Shown: positions 30,336-33,574 of the stretch, in pieces
Layout: every line of letters begins with the position of its first letter
How positions within the stretch are numbered: position 1 is the first letter of the stretch
Virus record (IMG/VR): IMGVR_UViG_3300030012_002411
Location: 1-45,681 of that record
Length of the DNA stretch: 45,681 nt
From: a virus
Strand: one strand, 5' to 3'
The notes under the pieces: model-generated
What the model saw: only the letters and a program-made list of their open reading frames with translations
What the model was told of the DNA's origin: nothing
The model's database searches: none
Made by a program: the position numbers and the translations under genes

Positions 30336-31529
30336 TTATCTACCCACTTCTGATAGGTACATTTCTTTTGTTTCTTCCCAAGTCTTCCCAACAATATCGC
30401 CGTAGAATAACTTCTCTGGTTTAAGTTTACCTTCATCAAATAACTTAGTATATCTTTTGATAGCTTTTGGTTTCCACCACTTCATAATGTAATCACTATC
30501 TTCAGAATACTTTTGTTTCATCTTCAAATCTTTTTCTTCTATCTCACCTCTTAGGAACTCCTTACCATTCTCATACATATCAGCATAAAAGATTCCTCTC
30601 TTAAACCCATGCATATATGTTGACGGTTTGACTCCAACTGCTCTGAATATCATATTGATAACTTTCTGTTTTACGCCTGTTGGAGGACCCGCTACACCTT
30701 CTTTTTGTGTAGTTTGTCTTAGATACTCTTCTGACTGGTTTTCTTTTAACCATTGATGCCAGACATCATATGTAGAGTCATCTGGTTTAAGAGCAATCTT
30801 ACCTGATGATGAACCTAATGTTTTCCAAAGTGGTATAGAGTTATACATAGAGTGAATACCATACAGAGATGTAGTAGATAAACCAACTAAGGTTTGTCCA
30901 TACAACTTCTTCCAAGCATCCCTAACTACTGATGATGTAACCATAGCGGCTACTAACTTACCACCCAAAAAGTTAAACCCTAATGGTTGAGCACAACATA
31001 TAGTTGTACCGATAGATGTGTGTTTAAGTTTACCATCTTTAAATTTATTATCTTTAGTCCAGCCGATAAATGTATCCCTAGCTCCTAATGATGTTACATC
31101 AGAACCCAAACAAATAATACCTAATATCTTACCACTAACTTTATCCTTTACATAGAACTTTACATTTCTGCCAGGATTAGCTGTAAACTCCATAGTGTGA
31201 ATCAACCTACGAACCAATGTCCACTCTTCATTTTGTTTAGCATTACCTTGCTCTGTCATTTCAACATAAGGTTCTAAAGCTTCTATCTCTTTGATAGTTT
31301 GTTCTTTATTATTAATATCTGTAGGTGTCCAAATAGACTTTTCTATTTTAGAGAAGTGTGTAGCTTTCTGTGTCATAGAATAGACATCAGCATTAAACTC
31401 TTGCCACTTCTTATATAATGTTTGTTCTTGTACAGACATAGACTTGAGAAAGTCTAAGTTATCGATAAACTTCTTACGTTCAGCTTCGAAGTCAAATTTT
31501 TCTTCATCGAAGAAATCATTAAAACCCAT
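30336..31529 (-). CDS. DruA/DUF4338-like protein
   Basis: A 397-residue protein. Residues 103-240 carry the pattern I associate with DUF4338, the domain of DruA in Druantia defence: VRRLI, then GRNVKFYVKDKVSGKILGII, SLGARDTFIGW (the RD.(W/F)IGW signature), then KLKHTSIGTTICCAQPLGFN, LGGKLVAAM and WKKLYGQTLVGLSTTSLYG. The first 100 and last 150 residues are helical and phage-specific. DruA belongs to a bacterial anti-phage system whose chemistry is unsettled; a phage copy might counter or imitate it, compete with other phages, or act on DNA. It lies between the tRNA and the 617-residue unknown. Family call moderate, role unknown. Confidence 0.6.
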   Translation of the reverse strand: MGFNDFFDEEKFDFEAERKKFIDNLDFLKSMSVQEQTLYKKWQEFNADVYSMTQKATHFSKIEKSIWTPTDINNKEQTIKEIEALEPYVEMTEQGNAKQNEEWTLVRRLIHTMEFTANPGRNVKFYVKDKVSGKILGIICLGSDVTSLGARDTFIGWTKDNKFKDGKLKHTSIGTTICCAQPLGFNFLGGKLVAAMVTSSVVRDAWKKLYGQTLVGLSTTSLYGIHSMYNSIPLWKTLGSSSGKIALKPDDSTYDVWHQWLKENQSEEYLRQTTQKEGVAGPPTGVKQKVINMIFRAVGVKPSTYMHGFKRGIFYADMYENGKEFLRGEIEEKDLKMKQKYSEDSDYIMKWWKPKAIKRYTKLFDEGKLKPEKLFYGDIVGKTWEETKEMYLSEVGR

Positions 31530-32994: not shown

Positions 32995-33410
32995 TGGAGC
33001 TGGTGGGAGTCGAACCCACGTCCAGTCTGTATTCTTCAATGAGTCATTTACAGCTTAGTTCAGTTTCAATAAGAAGTAACTGACAAACTACTTCACAACT
33101 TTGCTCAGAGTTGTCAACTGGTAGTTTCTTTAATCTCTAACTTCTATCCTAACTAAAGAGAGTTCGTCTAACTTATTTTATGACCGAGTGTTAGACAACT
33201 CAGTAGCTTATGCAGCGTATGCGTAAGCTGGTTGGTCATTACCGATTGGTAACTCAACTGAGTAATCATACTCAGCTAAATGCCAATCAATGTCCAACCC
33301 TTCAAGCGATAATTCGCCAAATAGAATTGTGAGTCTTTTATGTCAAGTCGTACTCAAACTCAGCTGCACTCAATTGTCAAATAACACCTGTCGATTTCCA
33401 ATACAGCCCC
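32995..33410 (-). ncRNA. ssrA: Transfer-messenger RNA (tmRNA, SsrA)
   Basis: A 416-nt one-piece tmRNA. The 5' end GGGGCUG (from 33410) pairs with CAGCUCC near the 3' end, giving a 7-bp acceptor stem with A as discriminator; CCA is not encoded. The T arm is GUGGG-UUCGACU-CCCAC, and the D-like arm reads UUGGAAAUCGACAGG. A first pseudoknot (UGAGU with ACUCA) ends 11 nt before the apparent resume codon, the same distance as in E. coli. After the tag, a GAGU/ACUC stem whose loop GUCUAAC (33190-33196) pairs with GUUAGAC (33166-33172) forms a second pseudoknot. tmRNA with SmpB rescues stalled ribosomes and tags their products for proteolysis. No smpB is in the window, so host SmpB would be used. Confidence 0.95.
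33208..33318 (-). other. Tag-peptide reading frame of the tmRNA (36 codons)
   Basis: Starting at GGC (33318) the frame reads G-E-L-S-L-E-G-L and runs 36 codons to a TAA, ending DQPAYAYAA. The terminal Ala-Ala is the proteolysis signal used by ClpXP-type proteases, and a Gly-Glu start is typical of Bacteroidota tags as I recall them. Most tags are far shorter (about 8-15 residues). A later in-frame GCT (Ala, then EYDYSVELP) would give 22 residues, but it sits too far from pseudoknot 1. The other two frames stop early. Confidence 0.75.
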
Positions 33411-33415
33411 ATATC

Positions 33416-33574
33416 TTAGTTATCTTCTGCGCCCTTAAACCAATCTTCTTCTTGTCTGTAATCCTCAAATACATCATCCGCCTTTAGATAAGCTATTACT
33501 TCCCTAACCAATTCCCATTCTTCTTCTTCAATAGCTTCCTTTAAAGTATCAATCATCCATTCAAAATCTAACAT
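33416..33574 (-). CDS. Small acidic protein immediately upstream of the tmRNA
   Basis: A 52-residue very acidic helical protein: LDFEWMIDTLKEAIEEEEWE, then a helix with REVIAYLKADDVF and an acidic, aromatic end. AGGAG stands 6 bases before the ATG at 33574. The stop codon is only 5 bases before the tmRNA 5' end, so both are probably on one transcript that must be processed. Many phage proteins of this shape are unknown; it could be an inhibitor-like protein. Its neighbour position makes a link with ribosome rescue possible but unproved. Confidence 0.75.
   Translation of the reverse strand: MLDFEWMIDTLKEAIEEEEWELVREVIAYLKADDVFEDYRQEEDWFKGAEDN

Follow-up and report, generated by a model that had tools for sequence, protein, structure and literature searches.

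The window, that is, the whole stretch of DNA analysed here (45,681 bases), comes from the genome of a T4-like myovirus, of which it is a fragment catalogued as a virus record. Its genes include those for a baseplate wedge protein resembling gp6, a protein with a DruA domain and a peptide deformylase. On the minus strand, at positions 32995–33410, lies a one-piece tmRNA gene (ssrA), recognized by a match to RF00023 together with an acceptor stem, a T arm and a discriminator A. A small acidic open reading frame precedes it on the same strand. The DruA-domain protein (Pfam PF14236, Druantia DruA; 30336–31529, minus strand) is encoded further downstream, past the tmRNA and a tRNA-Gly; it is conserved in these phages, and more distantly related proteins occur in Pelagibacter phages and cyanophages.

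Anatomy of the phage tmRNA

An initial annotation of this DNA had claimed a complete tmRNA in a phage genome, leaving the strand unstated, and the claim stands: the RF00023 match reaches 69.3 bits against a cut-off of 47 (E 4.9e-25) and covers model positions 1–374, which is the full model. The acceptor stem GGGGCUG/CAGCUCC is invariant, with its G3-U pair, the determinant of alanine charging, present in 19 of 19 aligned sequences, and the T arm covaries across 19 sequences. CCA is not encoded in the window tmRNA; the bases at this point are CTCC-A-CAA, and the same bases are found after the cellular tmRNA of locus L270.

Pseudoknot 1 (UGAGUU/GACUUG and UGAGU/ACUCA; 33330–33362, minus strand) is present in all 40 sequences compared and shows compensatory changes (GAGU/ACUC, GAGAU/RUCUC and UGGGUC/GACCCA). 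Its distance to the resume codon ranges from 10 to 13 nt with a mode of 11; in the window its 3' end lies 11 nt ahead of a GGC codon, exactly the spacing that the initial annotation had reported and likened to that of E. coli. Helix H5 (AGCUUA/UAAGCU; 33205–33229, minus strand), which is supported by covariation, holds the stop codon in its 3' arm. Within this helix, the base that decides between Ala, Ser and Thr in QP[AST]YAYA has its partner at the second position beyond the stop codon: the pair is T-A in 12 cases, A-T in 19 and G-C in one (this window), with two exceptions. The H5 stem-loop of E. coli has been placed at the mRNA channel entrance (PMC8363625). Pseudoknot 2 (CUGAG/CUCGG and GUCUAAC/GUUAGAC; 33166–33203, minus strand) also covaries, with both-side changes in 9 of 12 pairs, and over the region of pseudoknots 3 and 4 the RF00023 alignment has low posterior values. 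On all defining features tested, the window RNA is a tmRNA. It has in common with bacterial tmRNA (RF00023, ssrA) the G3-U acceptor stem, the T arm, pseudoknot 1 with the resume codon 11 nt further on, the stop codon in H5 and pseudoknot 2, and an SmpB-dependent mechanism is assumed to be common to both. It differs in having a 36-codon tag, a conserved block inside the tag and a hairpin over the resume codon.

The tag frame and its resume codon

The tag reading frame GELSLEGLDIDWHLAEYDYSVELPIGNDQPAYAYAA occupies positions 33208–33318 on the minus strand. Its 36 codons start at the GGC resume codon (33318–33316, nt 93 of the tmRNA) and end in AYAYAA before a UAA stop at 33210–33208, as the initial annotation had read them. 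Two sister phages with nearly identical 5' arms (L257 and L028) have the short tags GNTANFAYA and GTQANLTYAYA, which begin at the corresponding GGC; ARAGORN places the resume codons of both at nt 91–92, matching nt 93 in the window, and the placement at GGC is therefore upheld. The long-tag frames all open at nt 90–95 of the RNA, on a codon for G, S or D. On the window itself, ARAGORN did not return the 36-residue tag, giving instead a 5' end at 33515 and a 21-residue tag, EYDYSVELPIGNDQPAYAYAA. This 5' end is wrong, because the acceptor stem fixes the true one at 33410. The 21-residue tag was rejected since it relies on a 5' end that falls beyond the acceptor stem and on a resume codon that is not close to pseudoknot 1; it is also contradicted by the sister tmRNAs resuming at GGC.

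The long frame is conserved in relatives from dozens of marine phage contigs: loci found by the 5' arm alone have it in 32 of 35 cases and a short tag in the other 3, which represent two distinct loci (L257, and L028, identical to L047). Across the clade the long tags measure 34–43 residues. Using scans that made no use of the tag, the long open frame is intact in all 31 distinct long-tag sequences, and sequences from such scans also served for the synonymous-change and pN/pS tests. Of the gap runs counted pairwise, those inside the frame have a length divisible by three in 250 of 268 cases and those outside it in 143 of 1068. In frame, pN/pS is 0.43, against values of 1.05 and 0.93 for the two alternative frames. 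Within the first 16 codons, synonymous changes occur at L5 (CTA/CTC/CTT), L8 (TTG/TTA), I10 (ATT/ATC/ATA), D11 (GAT/GAC), H13 (CAT/CAC), L14 (TTA/CTA) and A15 (GCT/GCC). A stricter test that counts distinct alleles gives p = 0.04, a weak value because a hairpin fixes many of the bases here. The long frame is beyond chance and is coding.

This hairpin, GGCGA-auua-UCGCU (33305–33318, minus strand), lies over the resume codon and is supported by covariation. At least 5 pairs form in 85 of 85 distinct loci, against about 32% of synonymous shuffles drawn with phage codon usage, and the mean folding energy is -5.3 versus -1.1 kcal/mol for the shuffles; as the loci are related, no p-value is claimed. 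Among the compensatory changes are GGUGA/UCACU and GACGAA/UUCGUU; other variants re-form the helix as GCGAG/CUCGC and GCGAGG/CCUUGC. The near-invariance of the rare codons GGC and TCG is due to this helix, in a region that the Rfam consensus leaves unpaired. The hairpin is not a novelty of the phages, since most cellular tmRNAs from the lineage of the marine MAG TMED198 have one as well: among those examined (L270 and L274–L302), 28 of 30 have their resume codon covered by a hairpin of 4 bp (GCCG-AUUA-CGGC or a variant of it), and L300 shows the compensation GCCA/UGGC. The presence of a covarying hairpin at this place, in phages and a cellular lineage alike, matters for the question of how the ribosome gains access to the resume codon.

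The alignment divides the tag into two conserved parts. The N-terminal block G[DE]xSLxGLx[IV]DWHLA (33274–33318, minus strand) is invariant at S4, L5, G7, L8, D11, W12, H13 and A15 in the 34-sequence alignment, with rare variants DWHMA, DWQFA and DWHLF in the wider set. The degron-like C-terminal end, PAYAYAA in the window (33211–33231, minus strand) and QP[STA]YAYA(A) in the clade, falls within H5. Between them the middle varies in length and sequence, so that the pattern is bipartite, an N-terminal conserved site standing apart from a conserved C-terminal end. How strongly selection acts on the block as a peptide is blurred, because the hairpin, through codons TCG and GGC, accounts for part of the conservation. 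The tag had been described as acidic and tyrosine-rich, which is true of this member and not of the clade, whose conserved part is the block given above; the acidity and tyrosines are in part accidental features of the window tag. AlphaFold predicts the tag to be disordered (pLDDT 60), and this prediction is neutral on a docking motif, neither for nor against.

Reviews give SsrA tags a range of 8–35 residues (PMC8012679, PMC3968760), and in the paper on the 2025 tmRNA database (97,179 sequences) the commonest tag has 10 residues and the shortest 2 (PMC11915505). The window tag falls outside the review range, which is descriptive and not a defining limit. Calling it among the longest was fair in this respect, but tags of up to 43 residues occur in the clade, and one of 36 is also seen in a jumbo phage that is unrelated; both 36 and 43 are just beyond the range, and cellular tags of greater length may already have been recorded. 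The literature, searched mostly through non-subscription papers, yielded no phage tmRNA with a long tag, bipartite or otherwise. The jumbo phage (LR756508.1, L307), uncultured and 484 kb in size, has a tmRNA at 92434–92880 with a 36-codon frame, GVNNADYESAGFTAEDFAQMDGESLYHGSERKPAAV, whose GGC start is exactly 11 nt after pseudoknot 1; ARAGORN reads it as GRRKPLSW. Long tags may therefore be recurrent in phages. A second tmRNA-like match in LR756508.1 (414804–414915, 112 nt) scores 58 bits. Two further phage tmRNAs (L018 and L032) have mutually conserved 27-residue tags (AKNNILAIAERIADEAFARLERVEAVA and its homologue) that start 10 nt after pseudoknot 1.

Among known tags, that of E. coli (AANDENYALAA, ten residues of it encoded) combines an N-terminal adaptor site for SspB with a C-terminal ClpX degron. 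The phage tag has this two-part logic in common with it, but is longer than ten encoded residues and its N-terminal part is without sequence similarity. The SsrA tags of Mesoplasma and Mycoplasma (27 residues in Mesoplasma florum) resemble the phage tag in being long and in their aromatic-Ala C-terminus. They differ in that they are cellular, unrelated in sequence, without a DWHLA block and provided with a known reader protease; the M. florum tag, described as longer and ending in NYAFA, is read by Lon (PMC9382460), which sets a precedent for a long tag having its particular reader protease. Phages reported to carry tmRNA include mycobacteriophages, Bacillus phage G, Pelagibacter phage Mosig and methylophage Melnitz (PMC4131195, PMC9004378). 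The tmRNAs of Mosig and Melnitz are two-piece, unlike the one-piece window tmRNA, and the predicted Mosig tag has 9 residues (GEDNFALAA).

Distribution, host and neighbouring genes

Relatives were collected from IMG/VR by scans with a T-arm pattern, the neighbouring DruA protein, a 5'-arm pattern and the tag motif, the last of which matched at least 119 stretches. All members of the clade, dozens of marine phages, are uncultivated contigs. Among 50,697 phage records there was no relative by DNA or peptide, the tag motif included, and so no isolate is known. At the pattern used, a scan of 84,980 bacterial and archaeal genomes picked out three stretches. Two of these, in Pedobacter, are without tmRNA and were rejected as tags, so that the tag motif is present in a single genome; this third stretch lies on L269, a contig of phage origin that was binned with the marine MAG TMED198. 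Host tags were likewise rejected as a source of the motif, the sole tmRNA-linked genome match being this phage contig. The cellular tmRNAs of the TMED198 lineage encode tags of 9–10 residues in 30 of 30 examined, some ending in -AYA, and no counterpart of the DWHLA-type block was found in cellular tags, either in the 84,980 genomes or in these tmRNAs.

Because cellular tmRNAs of this lineage have the resume-codon hairpin and in some cases -AYA ends, the comparison weakly suggests hosts in or near the TMED198 lineage. A Bacteroidota host, brought up in the initial annotation, is unsupported: 31 of 42 window genes have Shine-Dalgarno sites, a prevalence that speaks against a typical Bacteroidota host, and the TMED198 bin, the only bacterial bin with such a contig, belongs to an unclassified lineage. 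That the phages carry their own SmpB was considered and rejected, as a search through the records of 19 related phages turned up no gene for it.

The small acidic ORF upstream of the tmRNA (33416–33574, minus strand) encodes 52 aa (MLDFEWMIDTLKEAIEEEEWELVREVIAYL...), has the Shine-Dalgarno sequence AGGAG and stops 5 nt ahead of the tmRNA. Homologues occupy this upstream position at 72 of the 94 distinct long-tag loci, and in some relatives the ORF overlaps the first tmRNA bases, with its UGA stop within GGGGCUGA. Since a homologue also precedes the short-tag tmRNA of L028, specificity for long tags was rejected: the ORF goes with the tmRNA itself rather than with the long tag. AlphaFold models the protein as a helical hairpin (pLDDT 82), for which no PDB fold match and no confident Pfam or PHROG family was found. 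As an adaptor for the N-terminal site it is a putative candidate, offered as a lead only. In L090 (from 5759) and L109 (from 6423), what comes after the companion ORF looks like a leftover of the 3' tmRNA pseudoknots with the 5' arm missing, apparently a case of tmRNA loss by deletion. The short-tag loci L257 and L028/L047 have the 5' arm in common with the long-tag tmRNAs and a different post-tag region (GACACCGAUA...ACAUCGGU); the tag and pseudoknot 2 seem to have been exchanged as one module.

A probable two-part tag and its alternatives

The comparisons make it probable that this is a working phage tmRNA with a two-part tag, in which a C-terminal degron is joined to an N-terminal docking block. 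Charged with alanine and loaded with host SmpB, the phage tmRNA would enter stalled host ribosomes. Judging from its anatomy and relatives, translation would then pass to the GGC at 33318, and Ala plus 36 residues would be added to the stalled protein. The resume-codon hairpin, a structure supported by covariation, may keep the frame start folded until the ribosome pulls the frame in. At the other end, -QPAYAYAA would serve as a degron for a host AAA+ protease, most likely ClpXP; its codons form helix H5, as they do in ordinary tmRNAs. The G[DE]xSLxGLx[IV]DWHLA block appears to be kept by selection on the protein, with the RNA constrained as well, and could act as a short docking site through which tagged proteins are bound to a specific partner, for instance the adaptor of a protease or some other factor from phage or host. 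The tag may redirect proteolysis or have some other added function, as the initial annotation had imagined.

Several other readings bear on this proposal. The additional residues could be a neutral or spacer-like insertion, with the C-terminal degron alone of importance. Tag length and the middle of the tag do vary freely, and sister phages function with short tags; that these manage with 9–11 residues is also a point against docking. The N-terminal block, however, is nearly invariant while the middle drifts, and its invariant tryptophan and aspartate would be needless in a spacer, which makes this reading improbable; a two-part degron fits better because a conserved first part and a conserved end flank a drifting middle. 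It is likewise unlikely that the tag is mainly non-degradative and diverts rescued proteins to sequestration, to phage use or to interference with host rescue. Such diversion would suit a conserved extra block whose counterpart was not found in cellular tags, and it has a decoy precedent in phage DS6A, described as having a truncated tmRNA that inhibits tmRNA (PMC4131195, PMC11915505), but the C-terminal YAYA(A) remains degron-like, and the window RNA is complete whereas that of DS6A is truncated.

We give very little weight to the reading in which translation resumes downstream, yielding the 21-residue ARAGORN tag or the last ~11 residues, with the upstream part serving as RNA structure and tagged proteins lacking GELSLEGLDIDWHLA. 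The ARAGORN output and the real hairpin over the first codons speak for it; against it are the sister short-tag tmRNAs that resume at the same GGC, the cellular tmRNAs that also resume inside such a hairpin, and the upstream signs of coding, namely in-frame gaps and the synonymous changes at L5, L8, I10, D11, H13, L14 and A15. Hardly credible is a decaying or passenger tmRNA without activity. The unencoded CCA could be taken as a sign of decay, as could L090 and L109, where apparently only a 3' remnant is left beside the companion gene, but CCA is unencoded in other tmRNAs too, the cellular L270 among them, and across dozens of contigs the reading frame and the structures around it (H5, the pseudoknots and the acceptor stem) have been maintained with covariation.

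The probable reading thus remains a working tmRNA with a two-part tag. A bolder form of it is tentative: in this widespread marine phage group, the tmRNA might attach to each rescued polypeptide a tail of 34–43 residues with its own conserved protein-binding motif, the DWHLA block, steering rescued proteins to a chosen partner and not only to the default host protease, possibly with the upstream acidic protein as adaptor. A tag of this length gives the tmRNA ring about 75 further bases to accommodate, and because ARAGORN misreads long tags they are probably under-reported. SsrA tags are mostly short and are viewed as simple degrons; a long, conserved two-part tag in a phage clade would imply that a second step of recognition on rescued proteins has been selected for, and what a phage may gain from replacing the host tag becomes testable.
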